Positions 21,692 through 28,370 of a DNA stretch of 64,000 bases are shown here, piece by piece. The stretch lies in NCBI RefSeq assembly GCF_024138715.1, contig NZ_CP092074.1, forward strand, positions 2,728,001 through 2,792,000. The letters run 5' to 3'. Numbering within the stretch: position 1 is the first letter of the stretch; each line of letters begins with the position of its first letter. The notes beneath the pieces were generated by a model. The model searched no databases, was not told where the DNA came from, and worked only from the letters and a program-made list of their open reading frames with translations. Source of the DNA: Emticicia sp. 21SJ11W-3 (GTDB lineage: Bacteria > Bacteroidota > Bacteroidia > Cytophagales > Spirosomataceae). The translations under genes were made by a program, and so were the position numbers.

Positions 21692-22474
21692 GTGAAACAA
21701 TCCTTCAGTTTTTTTATAAGCCTTTTCATTTCTTTTGTGTGTTTTTCGCAGGAAGACCGCACCAGCGTTATTAAAGTAAACGCTTCGGCGCTTGCCTTTA
21801 AGACCTACAACATCCAGTTTGAAAAAGCATTCAATAAAAAATTCAGCTTTGCATTGGGGGTTTCGCACAGGCCGGAAGATCGTATTCCTTTTGCCGCAGC
21901 CATCAGAAAATACGTTGATGCCGCAGATGAAGGTATTGATTATGTGAGTTTAAAAAACGTAAGAAAAAGTGAAGCCTCTATGGGTTTGTTTAAGATAACC
22001 CCCGAATTAAGGTTTTATCCGGGTAATAAGTCAAGCGCGCCAATTGGTTTTTATATTTCTCTGTTTGGCCGGTACGAACGCTTCTCTGGAACACTGCCGG
22101 TTGATGTTGATATGGTATATAAAGGCCAGCCCTTACGAGTTGAACTACCTGTAAAAACAGAGTTTAAAACGCTGTCAGGTGGTTTAATGCTGGGCAGGCA
22201 GTTCAGATTGGGAGAAAGATTTACGCTCGACTGGTATATAATAGGCGGATACTTTGGAAATGTAACGGTGCATGGCGAGTCAAATCAGGATTTATCTAAA
22301 TATGATGATAAATTTATCAGCGATTTGCGCCAGAATATTCTGGATACTTTCCAGATCAATGAGGCCTATCTGGCATTGCAGGTAGATAAACAAGGCGTAA
22401 GAATTGATAACGCCCGTAGACTGAAATATCTAAACCTGAGAGGCTTCGGCCTTAACCTGGGATACCGATTTTAA
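21692..22474 (+). CDS. Outer-membrane beta-barrel protein, DUF3575-like
   Basis: A 260-residue exported protein starting at GTG with a signal peptide (FFISLFISFVCFSQ, cut after CFS). The mature part has alternating strands and aromatic girdles (VKVNASALAFKTYNIQFEKAF, ELRFYPGN, GFYISLFGRYERFSG, GGLMLGRQFRLGERFTLDWYIIGGYFGN) and ends in GFGLNLGYRF, with the terminal aromatic that outer-membrane barrels use for BAM recognition. About eight strands are likely. DUF3575 is the nearest family known to me; function unknown. Confidence 0.75.
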   Translation: MKQSFSFFISLFISFVCFSQEDRTSVIKVNASALAFKTYNIQFEKAFNKKFSFALGVSHRPEDRIPFAAAIRKYVDAADEGIDYVSLKNVRKSEASMGLFKITPELRFYPGNKSSAPIGFYISLFGRYERFSGTLPVDVDMVYKGQPLRVELPVKTEFKTLSGGLMLGRQFRLGERFTLDWYIIGGYFGNVTVHGESNQDLSKYDDKFISDLRQNILDTFQINEAYLALQVDKQGVRIDNARRLKYLNLRGFGLNLGYRF

Positions 22475-22490: not shown

Positions 22491-22525
22491 AAAAAATCTC
22501 CCCCTTCAGGGAGGAGATTTTTTCT
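22491..22525. terminator. Bidirectional terminator
   Basis: AAAAAATCTCC-CCC and GGG-A-GGAGATTTTTT arms form a long hairpin with one bulged A. T-rich tails on both strands let it end the barrel gene and the convergent surface-repeat gene. Confidence 0.85.
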
Positions 22526-22542
22526 GACAAACCATGTAAATT

Positions 22543-24471
22543 TTAGATATTACATATTCTGATACCCGCCTGATAGCCCATCCAGGAGGCAAGATTTACC
22601 CGCTCGCCAAAGTATCTTCCCTGTTTTTCATAGAATTTGAATCGGCTCATATTACCCAGATTCACCTCCGGCTGCTGCTTTGCATGGAAATTGATGGTTG
22701 GCGCGGCAAACAGTGCTATGCGCGGGCTAAGGTGTACTTCAAGCCCCAGGCTGCCACGGAGCAAATTGTTGGTTTCCCATTCTTCCACATCATTTTGCAG
22801 GTGCGAGCTTACTACATCAAAATTCAACCACAGTGTTTTGTTCAGTTTCCAGGCAGTGCCAAGGCCATAGCCTAAGCTAAGCACAGGTTTGCCGGGTTGG
22901 TCGAAACCATAACCTACCGTAAATATATTATAAAACCTGCGCACACCCGTTTTGAAAGTAAGGTTACCCGGGCTTACCTCGTCGGTGCTTAGCTCCAGTC
23001 TTTTGTAGCCTCCGCGTTTTACAAAACTAATCAGACCCACCGGTATTGAATTAGACTCCTCGGCCACGTTCATCACCCCAACCTGCAAGCCGTTGTCTAC
23101 CCTGTAAGCCATATTTAGTATGCCTGCCTGCACACCGCTGAAAACATCAGATACCTGATTGAGGAATCCGGATGCCTGAACACCTTTAAAACTGCCACCC
23201 ACAAGGTTTACAAACCCGGCGGCCTGCACGCCGCTTCCGCTTTTAACGATAGCATTGGCAAAACCTGCTGCCTGAACCGAGTTCCGGGTATTATTACCGA
23301 CAACATTCACAAAACCCGAGCCTTGCACCCCACTGAAATTACGTAAAACCACATTGGCAAAACCTGCACCCTGCACGCCATAAGCCGACTGCCCCACAAC
23401 ATTGACAGTACCAGCAGCCTGCACACCATTTAATCTGCCTGCTACCAGATTGGCGAATCCGGCTGCCTGAATACCATCTACCCTGCCCCTTACCATGTTG
23501 AGCACCCCACCGATTTCAAGTTTTCTTACACCAAGCGAGTATCCGGCTATGATGTTGAACGAGTAATCGTTGATGACGTTACCGCTCATATAATGGTTGG
23601 TACCAATAAACGGCAGGATAGATACCTGAGACTGGCGGTAGAGGGTATCTTCAATATTATTGAGGTGGATATTCTGGCGGGTGGTTATCAACCAGTCTGT
23701 CAGTTTTTTATGCGCATCTTTTAAAGCGTCTTTGGTTTCGGCCCAGTACTCATCATAATCAATCGGCTTTTTTGATGTGCCTGTAGTAGTTGGCTCTTCA
23801 ATAACCTGTGGCAAAACCGCTACTTTAGGCAGGCTGTCGAGTTTTTTTGCAGGTAAGGTGTCTCTGTAAATTACCGGCAGTGTTTTTCTGGCAGCTACCT
23901 GAATAGGTTTGCTGGGCAGCAATGAAACATTAACTGTGGCGTCAGTTTTGGTTTTTACCGCCACTTCTTCATGACGATAATTCTGTTTTCTTACCTGCAG
24001 GTTTACGTTTTGAAGCGTGGCAGGTATTTTAAGGCGATAATAACCATACTGGTTTGTGACGGCCGAAGCAAGCGTGACAGGTTCGTACACACTGGCTTTT
24101 TCAATTTTCAAGCCCGTCTCCCCGTCTGAAACGTAGCCCATTACGAAAAAATCTTTTTTCGGCTCTTCAATGTTTCTTTTCAGAATAATGTAATTGCCCT
24201 TGTTTTTAAAAGTGGCCGTATTGCCGAAAACAGCATTCAAGGCCTCACGCACGGGCTGGTTCTGAACTGCCACCGAAACGCGCCTGTTAATATCAAAGTC
24301 GTCAGGATTATACGAAAAGCTGAAACTACCCGCATCAGAAATCATCTTAAGGGCTTTATCGAGTTTTTCGTTTGTAAATTTAACCGTGATTACACGTTCA
24401 AGCGGAGGTGTATCTTGTGCAAATGATTGGGACAGATGCAATAAAAAAATAAATGTTAATAGCTTTTTCAT
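22543..24471 (-). CDS. STN-domain surface-repeat protein (LA_2272-like), FecR-linked
   Basis: A 642-residue outer-membrane protein. Domains in order: signal peptide 1-18; STN domain about 27-100 (VITVKFTNEKLDKALKMISD, NYIILKR), the secretin/TonB short N-terminal domain that receives or relays signals to FecR; a carboxypeptidase-regulatory-like domain about 107-186 (GYVSDGETGLKIEKASV); a Pro/Lys linker; about ten 16-residue repeats at 317-490 (consensus GVQAAGFANVVxxxxx) as in LA_2272 surface-repeat proteins; and a C-terminal beta-rich segment. There is no TonB-dependent receptor plug or barrel. It follows sigma and fecR genes and has its own promoter-like element. Likely the surface sensor or output of that system. 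Confidence 0.8.
   Translation of the reverse strand: MKKLLTFIFLLHLSQSFAQDTPPLERVITVKFTNEKLDKALKMISDAGSFSFSYNPDDFDINRRVSVAVQNQPVREALNAVFGNTATFKNKGNYIILKRNIEEPKKDFFVMGYVSDGETGLKIEKASVYEPVTLASAVTNQYGYYRLKIPATLQNVNLQVRKQNYRHEEVAVKTKTDATVNVSLLPSKPIQVAARKTLPVIYRDTLPAKKLDSLPKVAVLPQVIEEPTTTGTSKKPIDYDEYWAETKDALKDAHKKLTDWLITTRQNIHLNNIEDTLYRQSQVSILPFIGTNHYMSGNVINDYSFNIIAGYSLGVRKLEIGGVLNMVRGRVDGIQAAGFANLVAGRLNGVQAAGTVNVVGQSAYGVQGAGFANVVLRNFSGVQGSGFVNVVGNNTRNSVQAAGFANAIVKSGSGVQAAGFVNLVGGSFKGVQASGFLNQVSDVFSGVQAGILNMAYRVDNGLQVGVMNVAEESNSIPVGLISFVKRGGYKRLELSTDEVSPGNLTFKTGVRRFYNIFTVGYGFDQPGKPVLSLGYGLGTAWKLNKTLWLNFDVVSSHLQNDVEEWETNNLLRGSLGLEVHLSPRIALFAAPTINFHAKQQPEVNLGNMSRFKFYEKQGRYFGERVNLASWMGYQAGIRICNI
23002..23523 (-). 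repeat. Sixteen-codon repeats in the surface protein gene
   Basis: The DNA encoding residues 317-490 consists of about ten degenerate 48-bp units. Each encodes Gly-[VI]-Gln-Ala-[AGS]-Gly-x-x-Asn-x-Val plus a variable tail of about five residues. Such periodic Gly-Val-Gln motifs suggest a beta-solenoid or extended surface fold. The repeats differ enough at DNA level to be fairly stable, but repeat number could vary between strains. Confidence 0.8.
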
Positions 24472-24492: not shown

Positions 24493-24518
24493 ATGACATC
24501 CGAAAACGATCCCCCCCC
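24493..24518 (-). promoter_or_regulatory. Putative ECF promoter with G8 tract before the STN gene
   Basis: On the minus strand, eight G (24518-24511), 11 bases, then ATGTCAT (24499-24493). The span from the first G to the end of TGTCAT is 26 bp, the same as the two elements between the sigma and GIN genes. TGTCAT ends 21 bases before the ATG at 24471. The TAA that follows GGGG in the other two is replaced here by more G, so the match is to GGGG and TGTCAT only. Confidence 0.55.
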
Positions 24519-24558
24519 TATAAGAAAAATATTTTTTTTCGGCTCATTACGCACTGGC

Positions 24559-25563
24559 TTATTCAGCACAGCCTTGTCCGTCTAAAACATAAGCACCCTC
24601 TTTTGCAGATACAGTAAGGTTAAGGGTTTCGGCTATAATATTGAGCGCATTGGGTAGCGACTCGTTGTTGAAACGGGTAGTGAGCCTGCAGGTTTTAATG
24701 CGGTTGTTAGTCAATACAATATTTGTATGGTAGCCATCGGCCAGCGCTTTCGCTATTTCTTCAAGGCTTTGGTTTTCAAATACAAATACTTTGGTTTTAT
24801 AAGCAAAAGCGTTTTTATCGGCACTGAGTTTTTTAATTGTATCGTTTTCAAAAGTAGCTTTTTCGCCTGCCACCAGCAGTGCGGCCTTCTTTTTGTTTTT
24901 AAACTCAACTTTCCCGGTTTCAACACTCACCTCTACATTTTTATTATAGGCTTTCACATTGAACGACGTACCCAGCACGCGGATGTCGGACCCATTGGCA
25001 TGAATCACAAATGGCTTGCTTTCGTTTCTTTTTATGTCAAAAAAAGCTTCGCCTTTCAGGGTTATCTCGCGGGTGTCGCCCTCAAAATTTTCAGGATAAA
25101 CAATAGAGGTGTTATTGTTCAGAAAAACCACAGAGCCGTCTGGCAACGTTTGTTGCAGCGTGTTGCCTGTGGTGGTAAGGGCCAGCATTTCCGGTTGGGG
25201 GTTGCTGAAAAAATAAGCTAGCAACCCTGCTGTTAGCACTACCAGAATACTGGCAGCAATACCCAGGCTAAAAAATCTTTTGGGTTTAGGTGCAGGTTTA
25301 AAGTCAATTACTTTTGCCTTGGGTGTGGTATCCATCCTTGCTTTTACTTTCAGCCAGGCGGCATCGGTATCAACGGGTTGGGTATTCTGCTCTTTCAGCA
25401 GGTCAGCCTTATCCCATATAAAAGTGTAGTCGTTTAGCTCTTTCTGATGTGCATCATTCTCCTCCAGCCACTTTTCAATCAAAGCATCTTCATGGGCATC
25501 AGTTTCCTGTGCCAGATATTTGCCTAAAAGGTCTTCGTGGTTATCTGAACGATTCGTATTCAA
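24559..25563 (-). CDS. FecR family anti-sigma / sigma regulator
   Basis: Inner-membrane regulator that holds an ECF sigma factor and releases it on a signal from the outer membrane. The 334-residue protein has an N-terminal cytoplasmic part (1-97, ALIEKWLEENDAHQKELNDY), one membrane span (about 98-119), the FecR periplasmic domain (125-225: LPDGSVVFLNNNTSI, GEAFFDIKRNESKPFVI, VRVLGTSFNVKAY-like block) and a C-terminal DUF4974 domain (about 262-330). The sigma gene ends 16 bases upstream. The C-terminal domain resembles STN (FENQSLEEIAKALAD versus FTNEKLDKALKMISD), fitting a domain-to-domain contact with the surface protein. Confidence 0.93.
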   Translation of the reverse strand: MNTNRSDNHEDLLGKYLAQETDAHEDALIEKWLEENDAHQKELNDYTFIWDKADLLKEQNTQPVDTDAAWLKVKARMDTTPKAKVIDFKPAPKPKRFFSLGIAASILVVLTAGLLAYFFSNPQPEMLALTTTGNTLQQTLPDGSVVFLNNNTSIVYPENFEGDTREITLKGEAFFDIKRNESKPFVIHANGSDIRVLGTSFNVKAYNKNVEVSVETGKVEFKNKKKAALLVAGEKATFENDTIKKLSADKNAFAYKTKVFVFENQSLEEIAKALADGYHTNIVLTNNRIKTCRLTTRFNNESLPNALNIIAETLNLTVSAKEGAYVLDGQGCAE

Positions 25564-25579
25564 GTTTAGCGTATTCTTC

Positions 25580-26182
25580 TTATAGGTACCAATATTCTAT
25601 GTTCAGCTTTACTATGCCGTCTATCTGTAAAATCAAGAGTGGCAGGTACTCGGCCAGTTCGGTTCTTAAAATTTTCAGCGCCTTGCCTACCTGGTTCTCA
25701 ACCGTTTTGGGCGAAAGCCCCAGTTGGTCGGCTATTTCATGGTACTTCAGTTCTTCAAACCGGCTCAGCTTAAAAATCACCCTGCATTGTTCGGGCAATT
25801 TTTCAATGGCTTCGTGTATGCGTTGTTCAAGTTCGTTTTTCATCACTGTCTGCCCAACCGACTCATACGAACTCTCATAATAACTGGTGGCGTACTCCTG
25901 ATACTCTTCGCGAATCTTCAGGTGTTTTATCCGGTTCAGGCAGTGGTTATGCACTGCCCTGTATAAATAAGATTTCAGCGAAATGTTAATTTCCAGGTCG
26001 CTTCGTTTTTCCCACAAGCCTGAAAACAAATTCTGCACAATTTCTTCGGCCTCTTCCATCTCTTTCAGTATAGAGTTGGCATAATTACAAAGGCTCTGAT
26101 AGTATTTCCGAAAAACTACTTCGAAAATACGTTCATTTCCCTGCCTTATTGCGCCAACTATTTCCTGCTCTGTTAACTGCAC
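25580..26182 (-). CDS. ECF RNA polymerase sigma factor, Bacteroidota expansion family
   Basis: Directs RNA polymerase to a small regulon. The 200-residue protein has region 2 (about 20-95: FRKYYQSLCNYANSIL, AEEIVQNLFSGLWEK, LKSYLYRAVHNHCLNRI) and region 4 (about 130-185: LPEQCRVIFKLSRFEELKYHEIADQLGLSPKTVENQVG). It precedes fecR and the STN surface gene. Its own upstream region has both an ECF-like element (26264-26289) and a housekeeping -7 box (26205-26212), a normal arrangement for an autoregulated sigma with a basal promoter. Confidence 0.95.
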   Translation of the reverse strand: MQLTEQEIVGAIRQGNERIFEVVFRKYYQSLCNYANSILKEMEEAEEIVQNLFSGLWEKRSDLEINISLKSYLYRAVHNHCLNRIKHLKIREEYQEYATSYYESSYESVGQTVMKNELEQRIHEAIEKLPEQCRVIFKLSRFEELKYHEIADQLGLSPKTVENQVGKALKILRTELAEYLPLLILQIDGIVKLNIEYWYL

Positions 26183-26204
26183 CGAATAAAGTTTAAATTT
26201 TATG

Positions 26205-26212
26205 CAAACATA
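26205..26212 (-). promoter_or_regulatory. Housekeeping -7 box before the sigma gene
   Basis: TATGTTTG on the minus strand fits TAnnTTTG, 22 bases before the sigma ATG. It would give basal, sigma-A-dependent expression. Confidence 0.45.
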
Positions 26213-26263
26213 GCGGTTTCTGTTGAAAGATTAAAAAATCAATTTGATGAACGGTCTGTGTAT

Positions 26264-26289
26264 ATGACAACCCACCAGCGTTTTACCCC
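26264..26289 (-). promoter_or_regulatory. Putative ECF promoter of the sigma operon
   Basis: Minus strand GGGGTAA (26289-26283), 12 bases, TTGTCAT (26270-26264). The same two boxes at the same spacing occur on the plus strand at 26362-26387. It lies 81 bases before the sigma ATG, so autoregulation is likely. Confidence 0.6.
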
Positions 26290-26361
26290 TACTTACTAAA
26301 GTAAAATTTTTTTATGGCGTGCTGCCGTAAAAAAAAACAAAGAATTTCAGCATAAGCAATG

Positions 26362-26387
26362 GGGGTAACGGAAGGCTGGTTTGTCAT
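26362..26387 (+). promoter_or_regulatory. Putative ECF promoter of the GIN lipoprotein gene
   Basis: Plus strand GGGGTAA (26362-26368), 12 bases, TTGTCAT (26381-26387), 27 bases before the ATG at 26415. It mirrors the sigma operon element across the 232-base divergent spacer. Confidence 0.6.
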
Positions 26388-26414: not shown

Positions 26415-27131
26415 ATGAAAAAACTAACCGTTTATTACTTGTTAGCCACTCTATTGATGGCATTTGGACTGAGTTCGTGTGAAATTATTGAGTCTGGTCT
26501 GGAACCGCGGCATCCGGAAGACAAGCACTTTAACCTGAGTGGTTTTGATAAGCTTGAAATGGGCGATGGTTTTCAGGTTGAGGTAAAGCAAAGCGCCAAT
26601 TACAGAATTTTTGTAAAAGGCGACCGCCGCGACATAGACGACCTGGTTGTGCGCGTAAGTGGCGGGCAGCTGAAAATGTATTTTTCTAAATGGCGGGCAA
26701 AACGCTACCGCATGGAGGTAGAAATTGAAATGCCAGACCTGAAAGAGACCGATTTCTCTGGTGCAGTAAATGCTTATGTAAAGGGTTTTAATAACCTGGA
26801 CCAACTGTACATTGATTTGTCGGGTGCGTCAAAGGCTACTTTTGTAACCCAGGCTAAAGGCTATGACATAGACTTGTCGGGCGCGTCAGACCTGATTATT
26901 GAGGGCAACGGCAAAAATCTGGAAGCCGAGATATCGGGGGCATCTAAACTGTATGCTTTTGATGCCGACATTGAGAAAGCTAACCTGGATGTATCAGGGG
27001 CAAGCTCGGCAAAAGTTACGGTAAGCAACAATCTGCGCGTAAGTGCCAGCGGAGCCAGTAAGGTTCGTTACCGCGGCAACCCGGTTGTTAGTTCTAATAC
27101 ATCGGGCAGCAGCCATGTTGAGAAAGATTAA
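26415..27131 (+). CDS. Head GIN-domain (DUF2807) lipoprotein
   Basis: A 238-residue lipoprotein (lipobox GLSSC, Cys22). The mature part is a right-handed beta-solenoid-like GIN domain: FDKLEMGDGFQVEVKQ start, then five Ser-Gly-Ala-Ser turns (LSGASKATF, LSGASDLII, ISGASKLYA, VSGASSAKV, ASGASKVRY) at regular steps. GIN proteins are proposed to be surface or periplasmic adhesin-like; none has a settled biochemical role. It reads divergently from the sigma operon and carries the same promoter-like element, so it is probably part of that regulon. Confidence 0.88.
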   Translation: MKKLTVYYLLATLLMAFGLSSCEIIESGLEPRHPEDKHFNLSGFDKLEMGDGFQVEVKQSANYRIFVKGDRRDIDDLVVRVSGGQLKMYFSKWRAKRYRMEVEIEMPDLKETDFSGAVNAYVKGFNNLDQLYIDLSGASKATFVTQAKGYDIDLSGASDLIIEGNGKNLEAEISGASKLYAFDADIEKANLDVSGASSAKVTVSNNLRVSASGASKVRYRGNPVVSSNTSGSSHVEKD

Positions 27132-27320
27132 TACGCCCACAAAATTTCTAAATCCAACCAGTAATCCACCAACCAGAACAATAGCCTTCATACCGGAAGG
27201 CTATTTTCATTTTGCCCTTTTGCCCAATAAAAATCGCCCCGATTTTGATTTTTGCCTAAAAAAGAGGTTATTCGTGGTGCAAAAACAAGAAACACTTTTT
27301 TAAACCATACATATAGTATT

Positions 27321-28370
27321 ATGTCAGAATTTATCAGTGGCATTCAGCAGGTCGGGATTGGCGTTAAAGATGCAGGCGAGGCTTTTCGCTGGTATAACAG
27401 AACACTCGGGCTGAATGTGCCGCTTTTTGATGATGTAGCAGAGGCTAAATTAATGACACCGCACACCAACGGGGTAGTAAGGCAACGCCGTGCCATTCTG
27501 GCCCTTAACATGGCCGGTGGTGGCGGAGCGGAAATCTGGCAGTCGAATCGTCCGGCACCTTTGGCGGCCGAATTTACCCCGGAATTAGGCGACTACGGTA
27601 TCTTTGCCCTGAAAATTAAATGCCAGAATGTAAAACAATTTGCGGGCAGGCATAGTTTAAAAGTAGAACTTTCGCTGGAAGGCAAAGAACACAGCTGGTT
27701 GCAGGACCCCTACGGAAACCAATTGCAGATAGTGCCTGATGGCTCGTGGTTTAAGCCTAAAGAGAGTAATACGGGTGGCGTTTTGGGCGTGATTATTGGT
27801 GTGAGCGACATTGACAAAGCGCTGAAACTCTATAAAGATACGCTGGGTATCAACGAAGTGGTTTATGACAAAACCGGTAGTTTCAATGACTTTGAAACCC
27901 TGGGCAAAGGCAATGCACGTTTCAGACGGGTACTTTTGCGTAAAAGTATGCAAAACCGCGGGGCGTTCAGCCGGTTGCTGGGCAATGTTGAAATAGAACT
28001 GGTGCAGGCACTGGATGCAGATGTAAAACCAAGAACCATTTTTGCAGGCCGTAGCTGGGGAGACCTGGGTTTTATTCACCTGTGTTTTGATACACTGGAT
28101 ATGGACGGACTGAAAGAATTTTGCGCCGGAAATGGTTTTCCGTTTACGGTTGACAGCAGCGATACCTTTGATATGGGCGAGGCCGGTGGCCGATTTACCT
28201 ATCTGGAAGACCCCGATGGCACACTTATTGAGTTTGTAGAAACACACCGGGTACCTATTCTGAAAAAAATAGGCTGGTATCTGAATCTGAAAACCAGAAA
28301 AACACAAAAACCATTGCCAGACTGGATGGTAGCCACCATGGGTTGGGGCAAAGTAAAAGACAAAGAATAG
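27321..28370 (+). CDS. Two-domain VOC (glyoxalase/dioxygenase) family protein
   Basis: A 349-residue cytosolic protein with two vicinal-oxygen-chelate domains (about 5-135 and 150-315). Each has the paired beta-alpha-beta-beta-beta units (GIQQVGIGVKDAGEAFRWYNRTLG; GVLGVIIGVSDIDKALKLYKDTLG), and likely metal ligands near GFIHLCFDT and GTLIEFVE. The substrate is not recognisable. The ATG at 27321 is preferred over an in-frame start at 27252, which would add 23 residues before the first domain strand. It stands alone; the nearest promoter sequence was not identified. Confidence 0.82.
   Translation: MSEFISGIQQVGIGVKDAGEAFRWYNRTLGLNVPLFDDVAEAKLMTPHTNGVVRQRRAILALNMAGGGGAEIWQSNRPAPLAAEFTPELGDYGIFALKIKCQNVKQFAGRHSLKVELSLEGKEHSWLQDPYGNQLQIVPDGSWFKPKESNTGGVLGVIIGVSDIDKALKLYKDTLGINEVVYDKTGSFNDFETLGKGNARFRRVLLRKSMQNRGAFSRLLGNVEIELVQALDADVKPRTIFAGRSWGDLGFIHLCFDTLDMDGLKEFCAGNGFPFTVDSSDTFDMGEAGGRFTYLEDPDGTLIEFVETHRVPILKKIGWYLNLKTRKTQKPLPDWMVATMGWGKVKDKE

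Follow-up and report, generated by a model that had tools for sequence, protein, structure and literature searches.

A two-box promoter-like element that accompanies a FecI-type ECF sigma factor and its STN partner in Emticicia and its relatives

An STN signalling domain in an outer-membrane partner is a feature of the E. coli FecI-FecR-FecA system and, with the location of the partner predicted, of the Emticicia module described here. Transcription of fecIR is not autoregulated, according to the available parts of a review of that system (PMC9249621). The VreA protein of the VreA-VreI-VreR (PUMA3) system of P. aeruginosa is small, without a beta barrel and mostly soluble, again as described in the accessible portion of the source (PMC2729926). 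Within the Bacteroidota, SigP of Porphyromonas gingivalis belongs to a PorY-PorX-SigP cascade (PMC4800418), while for the ECF sigma factors of B. thetaiotaomicron no promoter code was known in 2020 (PMC7366714) and a non-canonical element was proposed for two of them in 2025 (PMC12596196), as far as the available sections of these papers go. Of the many ECF sigma factors of the Bacteroidota, few seem to have a known promoter code. Our literature search, the coverage of which was partial, found no description of the motif or the module presented below, and the motif may already have been published.

The locus lies in a window (the whole stretch of DNA that was analysed, 64,000 nucleotides) comprising bases 2728001-2792000 of the 5,177,490-base (5.18 Mb) genome of Emticicia sp. 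21SJ11W-3. Its central gene, on the minus strand at 25580-26182, encodes an ECF sigma factor that falls in the FecI-type class (TIGR02985, 181.5 bits against a cut-off of 126.4) and in which the Sigma70_r2 and r4_2 domains were both matched. The same strand carries the genes for a FecR-type sigma regulator (24559-25563; FecR and FecR_C domains and, by eye, one hydrophobic segment) and for a protein of 642 residues with STN, CarboxypepD_reg-like and strand-rich C-terminal regions (22543-24471), which is predicted to be an outer-membrane transducer. A GIN-domain (DUF2807) protein with a lipobox recognized by eye is encoded divergently on the plus strand (26415-27131). Terminator-like stems stand after the GIN gene (27180-27205, plus strand) and after the STN gene (22497-22517, minus strand), with 8 such sites in the stretch against 5.9 expected. 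A glyoxalase-like gene, identified through its orthologue L174, occupies 27321-28370 on the plus strand; because a terminator-like stem stands between them, its co-transcription with the GIN gene was thought unlikely. A DUF3575 protein is encoded at 21692-22474, convergently with the STN gene.

Ahead of three of these genes we found an element composed of two boxes. Its full form, GGGGTAA-N12-TTGTCAT, occurs in exactly two copies, in the window and in the whole genome alike, at 26264-26289 on the minus strand and 26362-26387 on the plus strand, with 0 copies in shuffles and 0 for the reversed control. These are the two places named in a preliminary description of this DNA, which had also reported the pair to be absent elsewhere in the window; the window scan agrees, and the genome-wide scan that it had proposed returned no further copy. 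The shorter form GGGG-N16-TGTCAT has three copies in the window, where shuffles average 0.09 and none of 100 reaches 3, and eight in the genome, against three there for the reversed control. The promoter-like site of the sigma gene (26264-26291, minus strand; TAGGGG-N16-TGTCAT) stands about 81 nt ahead of the GTG start, that of the GIN lipoprotein gene (26360-26387, plus strand; TGGGGG-N16-TGTCAT) has its ATG 27 nt downstream, and that of the STN gene (24493-24520, minus strand; TAGGGG-N16-TGTCAT) has its ATG 21 nt downstream.

The third of these sites had been given in a weaker form, with GGGG alone as its first box. It falls within an eight-G run, yet TA precedes the first G, same as at the sigma site, and once the first box is written TRGGGG it is as good as the other two. 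Comparison with relatives indicates that it is real: GGGG-N16-TGTCAT stands at the matching place in all nine readable STN upstream regions, our own included (the tenth, of genome G004, runs off its contig and was left out), with TAGGGG as the first box in eight and TGGGGG in G035. The motif as originally written thus holds as a real element, but its conserved core is wider, TRGGGG-N16-TGTC. The eight-G run itself occupies 24511-24518 of the window, where most Emticicia relatives have GGGGAAAA; a G run of variable length at the STN promoter could tune promoter spacing.

Across the whole genome, the core pattern TRGGGG-N16-TGTC[ACT] gave 10 matches against 6 in the control. Six of the ten stand 21-81 nt before a start. 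Three of these are the local sites; the other three precede genes for a 235-residue protein whose start resembles a signal peptide (804867), for a small lipoprotein (1921913) and for a membrane protein. Of the remaining four matches, one falls within a frame, two are followed by no frame and one has a start 232 nt downstream. A looser scan allowing 2 mismatches returned 44 matches against 39 in the control, which is noise, and the loosened motif means nothing by itself in this genome.

To look beyond a single genome, we searched the 350-nt upstream regions of 80 named sigma orthologues (47-82% identity, the nearest being Emticicia species at 82%) for all pairs of 4-mers at distances of 10-20 nt, with downstream regions and ten shuffles as controls. 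The commonest gapped pair was GGGG-16-TGTC, present upstream of 62 of the 80 orthologues, against a control maximum of 18 in the downstream regions and 18 in the ten shuffles. Within 400 nt, where one locus may count repeatedly, the boxes were separated by N15 at 12 loci, N16 at 62 and N17 at 9, and 18 of the 80 orthologues were without the N16 form. Alignment of the 62 sites yielded the consensus [AG]TAGGGGTAA-N12-TTGTC[ATC]TA, of which the eight seed bases are fixed by construction; position -2 is T in 62/62 sites, and position -1 is A or G at frequencies of 0.87 and 0.13. Information content reaches 2 bits per base in the boxes and does not exceed 0.32 bit at spacer positions 8-14; as remarked in the preliminary description, the spacers differ while the boxes are kept. 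Nearer the second box, spacer positions 15, 17 and 18 hold 0.68-0.91 bit, and an AA about 7 nt past that box holds 1.15-1.18 bits, a conserved dinucleotide whose position fits a transcript start.

The 80 named loci, 802,424 bases in total, contain 124 matches to TRGGGG-N16-TGTC[ACT] against 1 for the reversed control, with 62 before sigma, 23 before GIN and 12 before STN genes and 27 elsewhere. FecR is encoded in 79 of the loci (adjoining sigma in 78) and STN in 77, while GIN was found in 26, in 14 of them divergently; the site is present at 14/14 divergent and 9/12 other GIN copies. Among the sites elsewhere, 26 of the 27 were examined with a frame, and 23 of these lie 10-61 nt before it, the rest at 3, 5 and 122 nt. 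Judged by eye from their translations, the genes behind these 26 sites encode twelve TonB-receptor-like proteins, ten surface-repeat proteins, one GIN-like lipoprotein and three other or short products; the surface-repeat proteins, of about 365-419 residues, are like the C-terminal part of the STN protein. In the Spirosoma and Fibrisoma loci L095, L105, L107, L108 and L110, a TonB-receptor-like gene near the module has a site of its own.

Within ten genomes (nine Emticicia and G035), a stricter pattern, TRGGGG-N-A-N14-TGTC-N-T, gave 49 matches. Seven of these are local sites of the sigma locus, and the other 42 were examined with their downstream frames; 39 of the 42 distinct sites lie within 150 nt before a plausible start, as read by eye from translations and frames, with four of the 39 distances counted from the start of an orthologue or from the STN upstream comparison rather than from the first start predicted. 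GGGG-N16-TGTC is kept on the sigma side in 9/10 genomes, G001 having one change in the G box, and on the GIN side likewise in 9/10, G007 having TAGGGG-N15-TGTC; the GIN-side site of G002 lies farther from the sigma gene (L177).

The most constant distant target is a 408-residue membrane protein (L282; G000:C1:173708-174931 in our own genome, G000), for which no Pfam or NCBIfam match was found at E 0.01 and whose site stands 22-23 nt before the ATG in all eight genomes that have both this gene and the sigma gene. Additional genes with the strict motif encode a small lipoprotein (two genomes, our own and G007), a 141-residue protein (two genomes) and a secreted YR-rich protein (three genomes). 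Against the breadth of the regulon, two genes have the site in only part of the sigma-bearing species and not in our own genome: the glyoxalase-like gene has a strict site in G003, G004, G007 and G010, TAGGGG-N16-TGTC in G001 and a one-change site in G006, with none in G000, G002, G008 and G035, while the cupin-like gene has a site in G003, G004, G006 and G007 and none in G000, G001, G002 and G008 (G010 being outside the listing). The preliminary description of a local regulon was largely right, but too small: its three sites are real, and they appear to belong to a broader regulon, mostly of envelope genes and with a membership that shifts in part, which extends from this locus to distant targets, the membrane protein and lipoproteins among them.

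The frequency of the motif was also compared between genomes with and without the sigma gene. Nine Emticicia genomes that have it, our own included, hold 47 strict matches against 3 for the reversed control, whereas G005 (90% complete) and G009 (99% complete), the two Emticicia genomes that lack an orthologue, hold 0 against 0. In the wider order, 33 genomes with the gene hold 127 strict matches against 25 in the control and 22 without it hold 11 against 8, the 55 genomes being split at a sigma E-value of 1e-40 after G042, G047 and G056, all without an orthologue, were left out of 58. Nine Emticicia genomes and G035, all with the sigma gene, also have an STN orthologue (10/10); in G005 and G009 none was found beyond weak matches to frames that are much longer.

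In both of the latter genomes, the DNA upstream of the membrane-protein gene is still alignable and the boxes are broken. Relative to the reference G003, 9 of 22 motif bases differ there as against 8 of 78 other bases (counted over 11 motif positions, one of which tolerates A or G); the corresponding counts for two sigma-bearing species are 0 of 22 and 12 of 78. The glyoxalase-like gene of G005 and G009 has a first box broken by one base each and a second box that is kept; its site changed no faster than its surroundings (2/22 motif against 9/78 other bases). G005 and G009 share changes and are perhaps sisters, and the decay of the boxes may represent one loss event. The two genomes constitute an apparent natural knockout.

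The presence, conservation and position of the sites, and their link with the sigma gene, can be read from the sequences themselves, and the question is what recognizes them. We take them to be promoters recognized by the ECF sigma factor whose gene lies at 25580-26182, with a probability of roughly 90%. That they are chance matches, or the functionless shared ancestry of intergenic DNA, deserves next to no credence: the loosened pattern does barely exceed its control in our own genome, but the boxes are kept where spacers have diverged and genes have moved, the excess over the control in the 80 loci is more than a hundredfold, and GIN genes carry the site at divergent and other positions alike. 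The G-rich first box would also suit a bipartite binding site for a DNA-binding regulator rather than a promoter. We regard such a site as very improbable, since the element is directional and often ends 19-41 nt before an ATG, the conserved AA follows its second box, and its frequency tracks a sigma gene. The distance between its boxes is ECF-like.

A main reader other than the adjacent factor would have to be sought among the further ECF sigma factors of the genome, which has 23 ECF matches. From the search that had yielded the orthologues we took 40 paralogous ECF sigma genes with at most 42% identity to the query, two of them from our own genome, and examined the 450-nt region upstream of each. 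GGGG-N15-TGTC is present in two of the 40, but the N16 form is present in none, and the two congeners that lack the sigma gene retain ECF matches, 17 in one and 22 in the other, yet have no strict site, so that a different ECF factor as the main reader seems highly unlikely. The N15 form of the two paralogue regions, L231 and L245, is located 213-224 nt upstream of the point where the fetched sequence ends; it is close to the sigma code but one base shorter. On sequence grounds, then, the motif goes with this particular sigma subfamily, and its frequency follows the presence of the gene. The suggestion in the preliminary description that the adjacent sigma factor reads an ECF-type promoter gains support on all of these counts, from 62/80 orthologues, 0/40 paralogues, the division of the 55 genomes and the broken boxes of species without the gene.

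The STN domain of the partner protein scores 36.2 bits against a cut-off of 28.4, in keeping with the STN partner of FecIRA signalling, while the plug and 22-strand barrel that define the TonB-dependent receptor of such signalling were not found in it. Among 58 aligned members (49 of 66 usable named-locus proteins and nine more), CarbopepD_reg_2 was matched in 58 and STN in 48 at E 0.001, and no TonB receptor plug or barrel Pfam family was matched in any at that threshold. A structural model built from these 58 sequences reached a pLDDT of 87.5 and a pTM of 0.71, against a poor pLDDT of 50.2 from a shallow alignment; it is laid out as an N-terminal helix, STN-like and carboxypeptidase-like regions, a low-confidence stretch at residues 191-234 and a strand-rich region from about 299 to 640. 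Foldseek returned 713 matches, one of which, a carboxypeptidase-like domain, had an E-value below 0.001. Among the best 50 of the 713 are a SusC N-terminal extension domain, PilQ N0 and carboxypeptidase-like domains and, weakly matched, other barrels such as those of OmpA, NspA, FadL and porins, with no TonB receptor plug or barrel among them; sequences of solved structures gave no match to the STN-protein profile at E 0.1. As modelled, the protein has the appearance of a partner in cell-surface signalling, though not of a TonB receptor, and it probably sits in the outer membrane.

We infer promoter activity, the flow of a signal, the location of the STN protein and the direction of regulation. 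The module would be a cell-surface signalling system in which the STN-carrying outer-membrane protein (24471-22543) senses a signal and FecR (25563-24559) carries it across the inner membrane. The freed sigma factor would bring RNA polymerase to TAGGGGTAA-N12-TTGTC[AT]T and so raise its own operon, the STN gene, the divergent GIN lipoprotein and a handful of distant genes. A box ahead of the sigma gene, TATGTTTG (26205-26212, minus strand), fits the housekeeping -7 consensus TAnnTTTG given in the available text of PMC7366714, and the sigma gene therefore probably has two promoters, the auto-site and a housekeeping one. In 10/10 genomes looked at, a count made without a chance control, TAnnTTTG stands between the auto-site and the sigma match, 30-38 nt from the latter; this housekeeping box would probably supply a basal level of sigma factor. 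More speculatively, and with considerable doubt on our part, the module could serve outer-membrane surveillance in the Bacteroidota, with the STN-barrel protein as sensor, its own level or folding as the signal, and an autoregulated sigma factor driving barrels, lipoproteins and GIN proteins through one promoter code, a functional counterpart of sigma-E outside the Proteobacteria.

If so read by its sigma factor, the element would provide one code readable across the Cytophagales and some further Bacteroidota, together with listed target genes and a natural knockout, so that the function of a widespread sigma-FecR-STN module becomes directly testable; the code also draws attention to an STN partner outside the TonB receptors. 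The module resembles E. coli FecI-FecR-FecA in its FecI-type sigma factor and FecR-type regulator, but differs from fecIR, as covered in the available parts of the review (PMC9249621), in that 62 of 80 named orthologues of the sigma gene are preceded by the site. It also differs from a system with FecA, a TonB-dependent receptor, in the nature of its STN partner. Like VreA-VreI-VreR, it has an STN-type partner that falls short of a full TonB receptor; unlike VreA, as far as the accessible portion of its description extends (PMC2729926), the Emticicia partner extends into a long strand-rich region at its C-terminus, and the site precedes its gene in 9/9 readable genomes. For SigP, another ECF factor of the Bacteroidota, the target motif put forward in the available text (PMC4800418) is C(T)AAA(G/C/T)A(T)A(C)T(A/G)A, which does not resemble the Emticicia motif. 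EcfO-Reo of Bacteroides and Phocaeicola, compared here by its description, is also a Bacteroidota ECF switch whose regulon includes surface lipoproteins; Reo itself, unlike the Emticicia module, is reported to span both membranes, and the accessible sections of the source mention neither FecR nor a separate STN partner (PMC13114119).
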